Shown here: positions 6,754 to 56,522 of the stretch, piece after piece
How positions within the stretch are numbered: position 1 is the stretch's first letter
Layout: the number at the start of each line of letters is the position of its first letter
Position numbers and translations under genes: made by a program
Source of the DNA: Polaromonas sp. 39-63-25
GTDB taxonomy: Bacteria; Pseudomonadota; Gammaproteobacteria; Burkholderiales; Burkholderiaceae_C
Direction of reading: 5' to 3'
Length of the DNA: 64,000 nucleotides
NCBI RefSeq assembly: GCF_002278925.1
Contig: NZ_NCJH01000001.1
Span: forward strand, 124,001-188,000
The notes under the pieces: model-generated
Told to the model about the DNA's origin: nothing
What the model saw: the letters and a program-made list of their open reading frames with translations, nothing else
Database searches by the model: none

Positions 6754-6771
6754 GGGGGTGTCTCCTGGTGT

Positions 6772-6826
6772 GCTATAAATTTGCGAGCTACTGGCGCCCG
6801 TGGGACAAGGGCTGAAGCACGATTTG
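6772..6826 (+). repeat. 55-57 bp interspersed element, copy 1 (intergenic)
   Basis: Reads GCTAT at the start, GAGCTACTGGCGCC in the middle and GGGCTGAAGC near the end, the same order and spacing as the copies at 30133, 33295, 47032, 50768 and 54435. It fills most of the 97-bp gap between the thioesterase and CurA-like genes and so lies in the presumed operon mRNA. Confidence 0.7.
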
Positions 6827-6850
6827 TCTTGTAAAAATATGTTTTTTCCA

Positions 6851-22381: not shown

Positions 22382-22477
22382 GGCCCCCACGCTTGTCACT
22401 TCGCGTACTGCGCTGCCCCCCGAGGGGGCCGCTGTGCCTGCGGCCCGGCGAAGCCGGTTCCGCGGCCCCGGCTGGTC
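22382..22477 (+). repeat. Repeat A, short form, directly after the crp/fnr-type stop
   Basis: Begins GGCCCCCACGCTTGTCACTT immediately after the TAA and carries two strong hairpins: CCCCCCGAGGGGG, and GGCCCGGCGAAGCCGG followed by TTCCGCGGCC. Other copies are at 24516, 43051, 49190 and 56456, with a fragment at 15870. It could act as a transcription terminator or mRNA 3' stabiliser. Confidence 0.75.
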
Positions 22478-24515: not shown

Positions 24516-24694
24516 CAAAGCCCCCACGCTTGTCGCTGCGCGTACTGCGCGAGGCCTTGCAGGCCGCGGCTCGCGAGACGCTTCGCCTCTGTCGCCTGTC
24601 CAAAGCTGCCCAAGCAGCTTTGGAGCCGCAGGCTCCAGCCCCTCGGGGGCGCTGCGCCTGCGGCCCGGCGAAGCCGGTTCCGCGGCCCCTGCTT
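24516..24694 (+). repeat. Repeat A, long form, after msrB
   Basis: Starts 5 nt after the msrB TGA with GCCCCCACGCTTGTCGCT. It contains an extra internal stretch of about 85 bp (AGGCCTTGCAGGCCGCGGCT, then CCAAAGCTGCCCAAGCAGCTT with a perfect AAGCTGC/GCAGCTT stem) before ending like the short copies (GGCCCGGCGAAGCCGGTTCC). It fills most of the msrB-ispZ gap. Confidence 0.75.
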
Positions 24695-30118: not shown

Positions 30119-30132
30119 TGGCATGCTGAGAT

Positions 30133-30188
30133 GCTATCTTTTAAATAGCAGTCAGCGCACATCCAAAAAGGGCTGGAGGCCTATTTCA
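30133..30188 (+). repeat. 55-57 bp interspersed element, copy 2 (contains the purL stop)
   Basis: GCTATC, then AAATAGCAGTCAGCGC, then GGGCTGGAGGCC and TATTTCA. The last eight bases overlap the 3' end of purL. The TAG stop codon of purL (minus strand) is formed by the CTA of the element's GGCCTATTT end. Confidence 0.75.
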
Positions 30189-33100
30189 CCCATTTCCTGG
30201 CATTGCGCCAGATCTCCATCCACGGGCTGGACGCGCTGATGTCCTGGTCCGTCCAGCTCAGCTGCACATTGCGGAACACACGTTCGGGATGCGGCATCAT
30301 GGCGGTGAAGCGGCCGTCGGCGGTGGTTACGGCGGTCAGGCCGCCGGCACTGCCGTTGGGATTGGCCGGGTAGGCTTCGGTCGGCTGGCCGTGGTGGTCG
30401 GTGAAACGCATCGCGGCAATCACCTTGGCGGCGTCGCCACGGTAGGCAAAGTTGGCATACCCCTCGCCATGCGCCACCGCAATCGGCAGGCGGCTGCCGG
30501 CCATGCCCTGCAGGAAGAGACTCGGTGAGTCGAGCACTTCGACCAGGCTCAGACGGGCTTCGAAACGCTCGCTGCGGTTGGTGGTGAACCGCGGCCAGGC
30601 CTCGGCGCCGGGAATGATGTCGGCCAGCTCGGCAAACATCTGGCAGCCGTTGCACACGCCCAGGCCAAAGGTGTCGGGGCGCCCGAAAAACGCCTGGAAC
30701 TGGTCCGACAGCGCGGGGTTGAAGGTGATGGAACGGGCCCAGCCGATGCCAGCGCCCAGGGTGTCGCCGTAGCTGAAACCGCCGCACGCCACCACGCCGG
30801 TGAAGTCGGCCAGCTGCGCGCGGCCGGTCTGCAGGTCGGTCATGTGCACGTCGCAGGCCTCGAAGCCGGCCTGGGTGAAGGCGTAGGCCATTTCCACATG
30901 CGAATTGACGCCCTGCTCGCGCAGCACCGCGACCCGGGGCCGCGACAGGTTCAGCGCCGGCGCCTGCGGGCGCTTGGCCGGGTCGAACGTCAGATGGACG
31001 TGCAGGCCGGGGTCCAGCGGATCGCCGGCCGCCGCATGTTCGGCATCTGCGCAGGCCGGGTTGTCGCGCTGCTGGTTGATTTTCCAGCTCACGGCGTCCC
31101 AGACCTGGTGCAGGTCCTGCAGCTTCGCGCTGAAGACCGCCTTGGTATCGCGCCAGACCTGGATCTCGCCCTTGCCCACCTCAAGCGAGGCATGTTGTGG
31201 CCGGGTCTTGCCGATGAAGTGGCTGAATCTGGACAGGCCGTGTTCGCGCAGGGTCTGCATCACGGCATTGCGTGCCTCGGTCCGCACCTGGATAACGACA
31301 CCCAGTTCTTCGTTGAACAGAGCCTTGAGCGTGAGCTCTTCCCGGCGCGCGCCGACCTGCGACGCCCAGTTCTTGCTGTCGCCGGTGTCCATGCGGCTGT
31401 CGGAAATGCCGTCGCCTTCGAGCAGCAGCATGTCGACGTTGAGCGAGACGCCCACATGGCCGGCAAAAGCCATTTCGCAGACCGTGGCCAGCAGGCCGCC
31501 GTCGCTGCGGTCGTGGTAGGCCAGCACCTGCCCCTGGGCGCGCAAGGCATTGATGGCCTTGACCAGGTTCACCAGGTCTTGCGGGTCCTCGAGGTCCGGC
31601 ACGGCGCCGTCTTCGAGCTCGAGTGTCTGCGCCAGGATGGAGCCGCCCATGCGGGCCTGGCCCTTGCCGAGGTCGATCAGGATCAGTGTGCTGTCGGCCT
31701 CCGATGCGTCGAGCTGCGGCGTCAGCGTGCCGCGCACGTCGGCCAGCGTCGCAAACGCGCTGACGATCAGAGATACCGGCGAGGTGACCTTTTTGCTGGC
31801 GCCATCGTCGCTCCAGACCGTGCGCATGGACAGCGAATCCTTGCCGACCGGAATCGACACGCCCAGGGCCGGGCACAGTTCCATGCCGACCGCCTTGACG
31901 GTTTCATACAGTGCGGCGTCCTGGCCCGGCTCGCCGCAAGCGGCCATCCAGTTCGCAGAAAGCTTCACACGCGGCAGCTCGATCGGCGCGGCCAGCAGGT
32001 TGGTGATGGCTTCGGCCACCGCCATGCGGCCGGAGGCGGCGGCATTAACGACGGCCAGCGGCGTGCGTTCTCCCATGCTCATGGCTTCGCCGGCAAAACC
32101 CTGGTAATCGGCCAGCGTCACCGCACAGTCGGCCACCGGCACCTGCCAGGGCCCGACCATCTGGTCGCGGTGCGTCAGGCCGCCCACGCTGCGGTCGCCG
32201 ATGGTGATCAGGAAACGTTTGGAGGCCACGGTCGGGTGGCTCAGGACGGCGATCACGCTTTTCTGCAGGTCGACGCCTGTCAGGGCCAGGGGCTTGATCT
32301 CATTGCGCACGGACTTGACGTCGCGCAGCATCCTGGGCGGTTTGCCCAGCAGCACGTTCATTGGCATGTCCACTGGGGCTGCGGCCTCCTTGTCGGAGAG
32401 CACCAGTTGTTTCTCTTCCGTCGCGACACCAATCACCGCAAACGGGCAACGCTCGCGCTCGCAAAAAGCCTGGAACTGCGGCAGCGATTCCGGCGCAATC
32501 GCCATCACATAACGCTCCTGGCTTTCGTTGCTCCAGATTTCCTTGGGCGACAGGCCGCTTTCTTCCAGTGGCACGGCACGCAGATCAAAACGTGCGCCGC
32601 GCCCGGCGTCGTTGACAAGTTCGGGGAAGGCGTTGGACAAGCCGCCGGCGCCCACGTCGTGGATGGCCAGGATGGGGTTGGCGCTGCCGAGCTGGGCACA
32701 CTGGTTGATGACTTCCTGGGCACGTCGCTCGATCTCCGGGTTGCCGCGTTGCACCGAGTCGAAGTCGAGTTGCGCCGCATTGGCGCCCGAGGCCATGGAA
32801 CTGGCCGCGCTGCCGCCCATGCCGATACGCATGCCGGGCCCGCCGAGCTGGATCAGCAAGGTGCCAGCCGGGAACAGGATTTTCTTCGTGAGGCCGGCGT
32901 CAATCGTGCCGACGCCGCCGGCGATCATGATGGGCTTGTGGTAACCCCAGCGCTGGCCGCCCACGGTCTGCTCGTACTCGCGGAAGTAGCCGGCCAGATT
33001 CGGCCTGCCGAACTCGTTGTTGAAGGCCGCGCCGCCCAGCGGGCCCTCGGTCATGATCTGCAGCGGGCTGGCGATGTGCTCCGGCTTGCCATACCCCTCA

Positions 33101-34215
33101 CCCTTGCCGTCAAACAGGCGGGACACGGTAAAACCGGTCAGGCCGGCCTTGGGGCGGGAGCCGCGCCCGGTCGCGCCTTCGTCGCGGATTTCGCCACCGG
33201 CACCCGTCGATGCGCCAGGGAAAGGTGAAATCGCCGTCGGGTGGTTGTGCGTTTCCACCTTCATCAGCACATGGGTCAAGACATCGTTCGTAGCGCTATA
33301 ACTTTGATAGCTGGTAGCGCCCACCCCTTCTGGGCTGGAGGCCGATTTGGCATAGAAGCGCTGGACCGGCAGGCCTTCCATGACCGAGGCGTTGTCCGAA
33401 TAGGCCACCACCGTGTGTTGCGGGTTGAGTTTTTCGGTGTTGCGGATCATGCCGAACAGGCTTTTGTCCTGGGCCACGCCGTCGATCGTGAAATCGGCGT
33501 TGAAAATCTTGTGGCGGCAATGTTCGCTGTTGGCCTGGGCGAACATCATGAGTTCGACATCGGTCGGGTTGCGCTGGAGCCCGGTGAAGGCGGTGACCAG
33601 GTAATCAATTTCGTCGGCTGCCAGCGCCAGGCCGAACTCGCTGTTGGCCGCTTCCAGTGCCGCCTTGCCACCGGCCAGCACGTTGATGGTCTGCAGCGGC
33701 GCGCCCTGCAGCTCGGTGAACAGGCCGGCAGCCTGCGCCCGGTCGGTCATCACACTTTCCGTCATGCGGTCGTGCAGCAAGGCGGCGACCTGGTCGCGCT
33801 GGGCGTCACTGAGGGCCGTCTTGCTGAAAAAGCCCGATTTGAGGGTCAACCGGTATTCGGTGATACGTTCGATGCGCTTGATGGCCAGCCCGCAGTTGTG
33901 GGCGATGTCGGTGGCCTTGGAGGCCCAGGGCGAGACCGTGCCGAAACGCGGCGAGACGATGAACAGCAGCGCTTCATCCTCGTTCGCGGTACTCGCTGGG
34001 CAGGGATCGCCGTAAGTCAGCAGCGCCGCCAGCCGGGTTTTGAGTGCTTCGTCAGGCGGTGACCCGATGGCCACCAGGTGCACGAAGCGGGCGCTGATGC
34101 CCGCGATCTTGCCCTCGATGGCTTGCAGGCGCGGCAGGAGTTGCTGGACGCGAAAGTCGCTCAGGGCGCTGATGCCGTGGGCGTCGCCCTCGAAAGTCGT
34201 CAGATGCAGGGTCAC
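30181..34215 (-). CDS. purL: Phosphoribosylformylglycinamidine synthase PurL
   Basis: A 1344-residue single-chain enzyme for step four of purine synthesis (FGAR + Gln + ATP to FGAM). It has [39 protein letters not shown] and [16 protein letters not shown] in the synthetase part. The C-terminal glutamine amidotransferase has [16 protein letters not shown], the Cys of GVCNGCQMF and the His/Glu of [12 protein letters not shown] prefer GTG 34215, which gives the family-like start TLHLTTFEG; an in-frame GTG at 34275 is possible. About residues 289-307 are encoded by an interspersed repeat. Confidence 0.96.
33295..33350 (+). repeat. 55-57 bp interspersed element, copy 3 (in frame inside purL)
   Basis: GCTATAACTTTGATAGCTGG, then TAGCGCCC and TGGGCTGGAGGCCGATTTGG. 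The element is antisense to purL. The purL strand through it reads [18 protein letters not shown], between the conserved VQRFY and [13 protein letters not shown]. By recall, E. coli PurL has about ten fewer residues here and no similar sequence. Confidence 0.8.
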
Positions 34216-39866: not shown

Positions 39867-43048
<3,182 letters not shown>

Positions 43049-43050
43049 GA

Positions 43051-43234
43051 CATGACCCCCACGGTCGCGCACTTCGTGTCGCTCTCGAGGCCTTGCAGGC
43101 CGCCGCTCGCCAGAGGCTTCGCTTCTGTCGCCTGTCCAAAGCTGCTCAAGCAGCTTTGGAGCCGCAGGCTCCAGCCCCTCGGGGGCCGCTGCGCCTGCGG
43201 CCCGGCAAAGCCGGTTCCGCGGCCCCTGCTTGAC
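43051..43234 (+). repeat. Repeat A, long form, between smc and zipA
   Basis: Begins ATGACCCCCACGGTCGCGC and ends GGCCCGGCAAAGCCGGTTCC, with the same extra internal stretch as the copy at 24516 (AGGCCTTGCAGGCCGCC, then CCAAAGCTGCTCAAGCAGCT). It is the only copy whose left end does not follow a recognised gene's stop in its own orientation; instead it abuts the presumed zipA start. Confidence 0.75.
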
Positions 43235-46805: not shown

Positions 46806-47031
46806 GGCGGACCCTGTTTTTATTCCTGGCGCTGGGAGATGCCTGAAGCTAAGCTGTTGATTTGCATGGCATTTTTCTGGAACGCCCGGCTTGCTTCAGG
46901 CAATGCACAGCCCGCAATGTTACCCGAGCCCGACGCCCGGGCCGCTGTAAAAAATGGTGACCGGGGCCATGCGGGGCGCAGTGGCGGTGGCGGTGCCCCC
47001 TTCCGTGCCCGGTTCTTGCCGGAATTCATGC

Positions 47032-47088
47032 ATCAAAATGGCCTCCAGCCCTTGTCTGCCATGCGCAGTCAGCTATTTTTTTCGTAGC
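47032..47088 (-). repeat. 55-57 bp interspersed element, copy 4 (intergenic)
   Basis: On the minus strand GCTACGAAAAAAATAGCTGA, then CTGCGCATGG, then AAGGGCTGGAGGCCATTTTG. This is the cleanest copy in the window and is close to the consensus GCTAy-n7-TAGCTG-n3-GCGC-n11-GGGCTGGAGGCC. Confidence 0.8.
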
Positions 47089-47138
47089 AAATCGGCTGTT
47101 GAGGCTGGCCAGCCGCCACCCGCGTGGTGTTCACACGG

Positions 47139-49189: not shown

Positions 49190-49289
49190 TGGCCCCCACG
49201 CTTGTCGCTTCGCGTACTGCGCTGCCCCCCGAGGGGGCGCTGCGCCTGCGGGCCGGCGAAGCCGGACCCGCGGCCCCGGCTGGTAAAGA
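49190..49289 (+). repeat. Repeat A, short form, directly after dapD
   Basis: Begins TGGCCCCCACGCTTGTCGCT at the base after the dapD TAA. It has the CCCCCCGAGGGGG hairpin and the GGGCCGGCGAAGCCGG stem. It separates dapD from the pilus ATPase gene. Confidence 0.75.
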
Positions 49290-50547: not shown

Positions 50548-52673
<2,126 letters not shown>

Positions 52674-56437: not shown

Positions 56438-56455
56438 AGGCAATTTCCCGCCGGG

Positions 56456-56522
56456 ACGCCCCAAGGGAAATCAGCCCCCTCGGGGGGCAGCGAGGACACG
56501 CCAGTGCCGAGCGTGGGGGCCA
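56456..56522 (-). repeat. Repeat A, truncated copy after the yeeE-type gene
   Basis: On the minus strand TGGCCCCCACGCTCGGCACT begins right after the TGA of the upstream gene and contains the CCCCCCGAGGGGG hairpin. It then diverges into GATTTCCCTTGGGGCG, so the 3' half typical of the other copies is missing. Confidence 0.7.

Follow-up and report, generated by a model that had tools for sequence, protein, structure and literature searches.

A repeated DNA motif of about 60 bp in purL and other core genes of Polaromonas and its relatives: a candidate uptake-type signal

The motif in purL and its copies

The window, by which we mean the whole analysed stretch of 64,000 nucleotides from Polaromonas sp. 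39-63-25, contains the gene purL and inside it one copy of a repeated DNA motif, with further copies spread over the window (Table 1). Read in frame, the purL copy encodes an 18-residue peptide within a loop of PurL, and the alignment with Salmonella PurL (PDB 1T3T) showed the loop with its insert to be 11 residues longer, in agreement with the roughly ten extra residues that the initial annotation had given relative to the E. coli enzyme. In 33 rows of the PurL alignment the 18 insert residues follow the pattern K-x13-Q-x-Y-S/A, and the closest named relatives of the protein are from Polaromonas. An AlphaFold2 prediction for a 451-residue PurL fragment with 35 sequences reached a mean pLDDT of 57.7, insufficient for placing the loop.

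Table 1: Genes, motif copies and GC-rich repeats in the window
Feature	Position	Strand	Remarks
purL, phosphoribosylformylglycinamidine synthase, 1364 aa	30181..34275	-	identified by translation and PDB 1T3T alignment
Motif copy in purL	33294..33355	+	antisense to purL; 61.8 bits, E 2.3e-18 in the window
Motif copy that overlaps the stop codon of purL	30132..30191	+	51.8 bits
selO, protein adenylyltransferase SelO/YdiU, 492 aa	22593..24071	+	
Motif copy on native selO codons	23812..23870	+	43.4 bits; absent from the initial annotation
Motif copy, not called coding	47030..47089	-	46.9 bits; present in G055
Motif copy, not called coding	6771..6834	+	46.3 bits; present in G055
Motif copy, not called coding	50761..50823	-	40.5 bits; present in G055; absent from the initial annotation
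GC-rich repeat of PurL loop 2 (L045 type)	22388-22468, 24645-24688, 43175-43225, 49197-49276, 56449-56515		

The copies were scored with a sequence-only model (R1) of 65 positions at 0.863 bits each, built from 34 copies of the own genome with the purL and selO copies excluded; two of the 36 copies selected for it are absent from its alignment. Although the model was built without it, the purL copy ranks third among the best 150 own-genome matches scored, all of which have E ≤ 4.8e-9. In 20 preset 20-kb stretches (400 kb of the own genome) 48 of the 63 listed matches reached at least 20 bits, and scaling to 4.83 Mb gives about 580 copies expected genome-wide. From the bit score, the rank, the E values and this expected number we conclude that the repeated element described in frame inside purL by the initial annotation is real and lies far beyond chance. 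An own-genome BLASTN search with a 116-bp query found 38 places including the query itself, and marginal matches of the model in the window start at 41082 (12.5 bits) and 54434 (12.0 bits).

The three further copies that had been named before, at 6772, 30133 and 47032, were all recovered by the model. They had been called intergenic, which holds in so far as the first and the last are not called coding, but the copy at 30132 overlaps the stop codon of purL. They had also been described as sharing blocks in the same order and spacing; the copy at 6771 is without the exact TAGCTG and GGAGGCC blocks. The copy at the 3' end of purL is also present in relatives, for example at the loci L010, L011, L013, L016 and L040.

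The Polaromonas consensus, GCTAy-N(~8)-ATAGCTG-N3-GCGC-(N~11)-GGGCTGGAGGCC-n-ATTT, spans about 60 bp and consists of several conserved blocks with loose bases between them, and the copies are mostly of 0.4–0.6 GC. Partial copies are one-sided, as 17 of 103 hits keep the left part alone (ending by position 46) and none of the 103 the right part alone; a few matches without the left part were seen elsewhere (L042, L117). Copies occur on both strands (22 plus and 17 minus in 400 kb of the own contig C52), and regular spacing between them was not found (P 0.10 and 0.76). At least seven of 39 copies lie inside coding frames compared to 52% of 2000 random positions judged by the same rule, the seven being a minimum because the rule missed the selO copy; the copies are thus underrepresented in genes yet not excluded from them. 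Weaker copies overlap the genes for HscA, an asparaginase and a glycine-oxidase-like protein. Beyond the own genome, matches with E ≤ 1e-5 were found in 31 of 100 genomes of the same GTDB family, almost all from different genera, and a BLASTN search of plasmids and phages gave no motif match at E ≤ 0.01. A dense group of five same-strand matches within 1.6 kb is present in Acidovorax temperans (L213 1278-2812, with starts at 1278, 1535, 2173, 2435 and 2755).

As some copies could form a short GCTAT/ATAGC hairpin, a structured RNA in the purL mRNA or its antisense transcript was considered as an explanation, but the consensus fold has three pairs, none of them with both sides changed, and copies are found in either orientation within genes. 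The Rfam search with eight loci gave one match, of E 0.36 and away from the motif. We therefore rejected a structured RNA, which would be a very improbable cause of the motif. The same fold, with three predicted and no covarying pairs, speaks against the likening to palindromic elements in the initial annotation.

Conservation of DNA and protein in core genes

In order to compare DNA and protein in the purL insert we used 30 rows of the PurL alignment (435 pairs), from which L058 had been dropped, as well as L129, L133 and L166 as probable duplicates. The amino-acid identity is 0.60 in the insert and 0.87 in the rest of PurL, whereas the codon identity at conserved residues is 0.80 in the insert and 0.65 in the rest. 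The codon-matched excess of the insert is +0.229, while purL windows of equal length have a mean of -0.003 (sd 0.046) and none of the 207 reaches the insert. Two codons that are rare in the host are invariant in the insert, namely CAA (30 of 30 rows, compared to 0.23 of the glutamine codons elsewhere) and AAA (30 of 30, compared to 0.35 elsewhere). As codon identity, codon-matched excess and fixed rare codons agree, the DNA of the purL insert is shown to be more tightly held than its peptide, the opposite of a conserved peptide with divergent DNA. Column by column, conservation in purL is weakly correlated with conservation in the family (rho 0.22, p 0.08) and strongly with the match to the family consensus (rho 0.60); in place of this comparison we rely on the codon-matched test. 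If a peptide of PurL were simply conserved as such, without a cause at the DNA level, this would account for a similar loop peptide in many relatives, but it does not fit host-rare and more conserved codons in a peptide whose own conservation is below that of the remaining protein, and closely similar DNA stands at 149 other scored places of the own genome. The own-genome matches and the codon-matched test refute this explanation, to which we give next to no credence.

Three further core enzymes, MoeA, SelO and LpxB, were analyzed in 17 motif-rich genomes (at least 26 copies) and 13 motif-poor genomes (at most nine copies), counting any match with E ≤ 0.5. A match in a loop of MoeA was found in 16 of the 17 rich genomes and in none of the 13 poor ones, at a second place of MoeA in 14 of 17 and 0 of 13, in SelO in 15 of 17 and 0 of 13 and in LpxB in 15 of 17 and 1 of 13, the last with 11 bits; one or two of these matches are absent in G042, G036, G045 and G047. 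The MoeA loop is 23 aa longer than in E. coli MoeA. The MoeA segment has 57–65 residues in 15 rich genomes and 40–51 in 12 of the 13 poor ones, and it reaches 87 and 114 residues in two rich genomes with extra repeats. In the poor genome G028 (nine copies) it has 59 residues without a motif match, and the MoeA loop of the rich genome G042 is likewise without one.

At the other places the length does not change: the SelO segment has 45 aa and the LpxB segment 52 aa in 30 of 30 genomes, and the second place of MoeA is of constant length among the same 30. At the motif, the alignment of LpxB with its E. coli counterpart is free of gaps. SelO is two to three residues shorter within the motif than the proteins of E. 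coli and P. syringae, so that its gaplessness holds against near relatives only. Third codon positions in the strong columns of the motif match the consensus in 186 of 221 cases in rich but 57 of 169 in poor genomes for SelO, and in 129 of 153 and 39 of 117 cases for LpxB (84% against 33–34% for both genes); at the second place of MoeA the counts are 158 of 221 and 48 of 169. We read this as the motif having been written onto native codons in SelO, LpxB and the second place of MoeA. In moeA and, partly, in purL, the alignments show the motif as an apparently added loop.

Persistence, joint loss and lineage versions

To follow individual copies between sister species we compared the own contig C52 (1-400000) with a contig of G055 at about 93% DNA identity. 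Both flanks could be matched for 19 of the 39 own copies, and all 19 are present in G055. In the reverse comparison 21 of the 42 G055 copies are present in the own genome and none has an empty site. Clean empty sites are therefore absent among the assessable copies of the two species, and recent mobility was rejected. Copies are shown to be retained at orthologous positions, among them fixed ones in the core genes purL, moeA, selO and lpxB.

The presence of the purL copy follows the abundance of the motif. Among the 50 genomes behind the named loci, a match at purL site 1 is found in all 13 motif-rich genomes (at least 25 matches) and in none of the 37 motif-poor ones (0–8 matches); by eye, motif-like stretches are kept in purL of the poor genomes L144, L150 and L178. 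After extending the copy counts with 46 genomes of the same genera, we used a PurL tree of 89 of the 129 aligned rows, the others being duplicates or without a copy count, with the insert columns removed and thresholds of 20 copies and 13 bits. It contains 35 rows that are rich with the purL copy and 52 that are poor without it, L025 (rich without) and L049 (poor with) being the exceptions. Each trait changes 12 times on the tree, and of nine independent pairs about eight are in favor of a joint change and none against it (p about 0.008). Some of the genomes are incomplete MAGs, and as one Polaromonas-trained model was used for both traits, a strongly changed version of the motif would look poor in both. 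A case of loss is seen in G031, the sister of L131/G162 on the tree, with one match compared to 93. When the five highest-scoring copies within 200 kb of G162 were compared with G031, the purL copy of G031 was found to be decayed with a 21-base deletion, and of the other four one is half-retained and three are gone or replaced. The half-retained copy points to a loss of the family in G031 and not to a lineage that had always been without it. Lineages that lose the family genome-wide are shown to lose the purL copy too.

The motif also differs between lineages. From 54 matches in 400 kb of Acidovorax temperans we derived an Acidovorax consensus using 25 of them (22 were unused and seven of L213 left out), which reads GCGCTT...AAGCGC (GCGCTT...AAGCGCTAGAG) compared to GCGCCC...AAGGGC (GCGCCC...AAGGGCTGGAG) in Polaromonas. 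In A. temperans and A. facilis, GCGCTT and AGCGC stand in the purL copy and also in the selO and lpxB stretches. As AAGCGC or a near form is also found in lpxB of five Polaromonas genomes (G047, G060, G024, G045 and G036), lpxB is not a clean marker of the version.

These results make the selfish insert proposed in the initial annotation only partly right. A repeat family does occupy an essential enzyme, but a simple insertion is at odds with the 19 of 19 assessable copies shared with the sister species, with the native codons of SelO and LpxB and with versions that track the lineage. A more elaborate form of the idea, in which an old mobile REP- or RPE-like repeat has become immobile and its copies are kept alike by gene conversion, would explain the residues added to the MoeA and purL loops and the MoeA match in rich genomes, most of which have the longer loop; gene conversion would also give a lineage-specific consensus, and in-frame inserts of unrelated GC-rich repeats do occur, both in the MoeA loop concerned and in further loops of PurL. 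It is harder to reconcile with the constant length and the third-position matches of SelO, LpxB and the second place of MoeA, with the lack of empty sites among the 19 assessable copies and with the lack of a covarying palindrome. We regard such an old repeat as possible but rather unlikely.

Orthologous persistence, lineage versions and joint decay would also be expected if the motif were the site of a DNA-binding protein, for instance a chromosome-organising one, with ordinary selection maintaining hundreds of such sites and the versions tracking the specificity of the protein. The occurrence in both orientations agrees with this, as does an orientation trend in the complete genome G149, where the first half has 5 plus and 21 minus copies and the second 20 plus and 14 minus (60 of 149 matches, with the origin assumed at base 1). 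In free-arc permutations a replication-linked orientation was not significant (p 0.12 for G149 and 0.06 for G125), and the GC skew of G125 is too weak for placing the origin. Hundreds of selected 60-bp sites, some of them in core enzymes, would also be a heavy load, and no protein is known for the motif. We regard such a binding site, too, as possible but rather unlikely.

A candidate uptake-type signal and other repeats

Our best guess for the motif is a long signal of the DNA-uptake type, a function that we infer and hold tentatively, with somewhat less than even confidence. It is favored by the writing of codons in place, the lineage versions, the one-sided partial copies and the joint decay. 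The motif would be recognised as duplex DNA in either orientation, most likely by the DNA-uptake and transformation machinery, and sequences carrying it would be favored. Alleles with the motif would be preferentially taken up and recombined, so that point mutations towards the motif might be driven up, genes included, and short loops could grow around it. Once the uptake specificity is lost, the copies would be expected to decay.

To our knowledge, uptake sequences are firmly known from only two families. The USS of Pasteurellaceae and the DUS of Neisseriaceae resemble the motif in being dispersed over genes and intergenic regions in either orientation, with coding copies that exist and non-coding ones that are commoner. 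Likewise shared are the apparent position on native codons of some genes without a change in length, the existence of lineage versions and partial copies of which one part is kept; as in USS and DUS, the motif is also strongly over-represented across the genome and has lineage dialects. Dialects of DUS are a precedent for such versions (PMC3630211), and for the Haemophilus USS it has been argued that they are "not insertions" (PMC1626085), the same kind of argument as we use here. The differences are considerable. Instead of a short core of 9–12 bp we find about 60 bp and a model of 65 positions, and the motif occurs about once per 8 kb compared to about once per kb, a density close to one per kb being described for known uptake sequences (PMC1626085). 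Residues have been gained in two genes, and the role in uptake is in our case one that we infer. Against our reading count the much greater length of the motif, a density lower by a factor of about eight than that of known uptake sequences, the lack of regular spacing and the residues gained by MoeA and purL, since USS do not usually add any.

Published competence data touch the same group. A. temperans and A. facilis are reported as naturally competent (PMC4212676), and with at least 105 and 104 matches, respectively, both are motif-rich. According to the same source A. temperans is transformed by DNA of its own species only and DNA of A. facilis fails, and for the relative Verminephrobacter eiseniae selective DNA binding is described (PMC4212676). 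Since the two Acidovorax species have the same version in purL and A. temperans is nevertheless not transformed by A. facilis DNA, another barrier would be needed.

Other dispersed repeats share some features with the motif. Rickettsia palindromic elements (RPE), described as palindromic elements of about 150 bp (PMC10969869), are likewise dispersed repeats read in frame in unrelated genes, but the motif has about 60 bp, no covarying palindrome and no sign of recent mobility, and in some genes it is present without a change in length. REP/BIME and other interspersed repeats also have hundreds of copies mostly outside of genes; they differ from the motif, which is without a conserved hairpin, has copies in genes and is lineage-matched in its in-gene sequence. 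The Betaproteobacterial repeat element BRE is described from Bordetella and Comamonadaceae including Polaromonas, with some coding copies, with 75–91 bp and 69% GC in Bordetella and with at most 29 copies per genome (PMC3110155). It shares with the motif a Polaromonas host and some copies within coding sequences, but was rejected on a comparison by description rather than by letters, since the motif has about 60 bp, mostly 0.4–0.6 GC and about 580 copies.

No description of the motif was found in the literature searched, which was mostly open access, and in this respect the initial annotation, which knew of none for the family, still stands. It is possible, and we lean slightly against it, that what we see here is a class of genome-wide DNA signals not described before, namely a multi-block motif of about 60 bp that is kept in lineage versions at hundreds of positions, a good part of which are common to several species, in about one third of the sampled genera of one family, which rewrites codons and amino acids of core enzymes, grows loops elsewhere and has a putative reader machinery whose loss leads to joint decay. 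If this is right, core enzymes have their protein sequence shaped by a DNA signal common to many genera of the Comamonadaceae, and the versions of the motif may mark partners of DNA exchange. It would then be a third case of uptake sequences, with a very long motif and in a group including published competent strains. If the motif is instead the site of a binding protein or a repeat that has been homogenised, it would still be an unusually clear constraint at the DNA level overriding coding sequence.

Besides the motif, several unrelated repeats were observed as in-frame inserts in two further PurL loops, near residues ~631 and ~1100 of P0001, in several of the loci L031-L056 as well as in L133, L144, L149, L152 and L159. 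Their peptides include SPEGRG..LPLGEGRGEG, AAAPSGGSEPHEVGSV, RPEPVEG..STGSARTE and VIPAQAGIH..DSRLRGNDG. The DNA of these loop-2 and loop-3 repeats is GC-rich, with inverted repeats seen by eye, and an RPE-like in-frame insertion fits better for them. We conjecture that the GC-rich repeat of about 90 bp in these two loops may be BRE, which is known here by description. In 740 kb of the own genome, BLASTN gave 41 matches (E ≤ 1e-4) to the repeat of the L045 type (Table 1). In L011, L013, L015, L016, L041, L130 and L139 the loop near residue ~1100 carries the purL motif in another frame. Two Limnohabitans loci (L137 and L140) have a long repetitive insert (GVQRSAFSVQRGDGVQRSAFSVERE...) in the loop near ~631, and their genomes have no motif match. 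Beside the motif in the MoeA loop, one PQGETAP-GGSEPH-VGSV repeat is present in L347 (G050) and two in tandem in L351 (G038).

Some PurL relatives were unusual in other ways. G025 has a second purL (G025:C4:21690-25733) with 79% identity and one internal TAG, and G044 has two overlapping divergent purL pieces, which are due to either duplication or mixed assembly. Two actinobacterial loci, L198 and L205 (Propioniciclava and Flexivirga), carry a PurL that is about 62% identical to the betaproteobacterial protein over nearly its full length, the result of either transfer or contamination.
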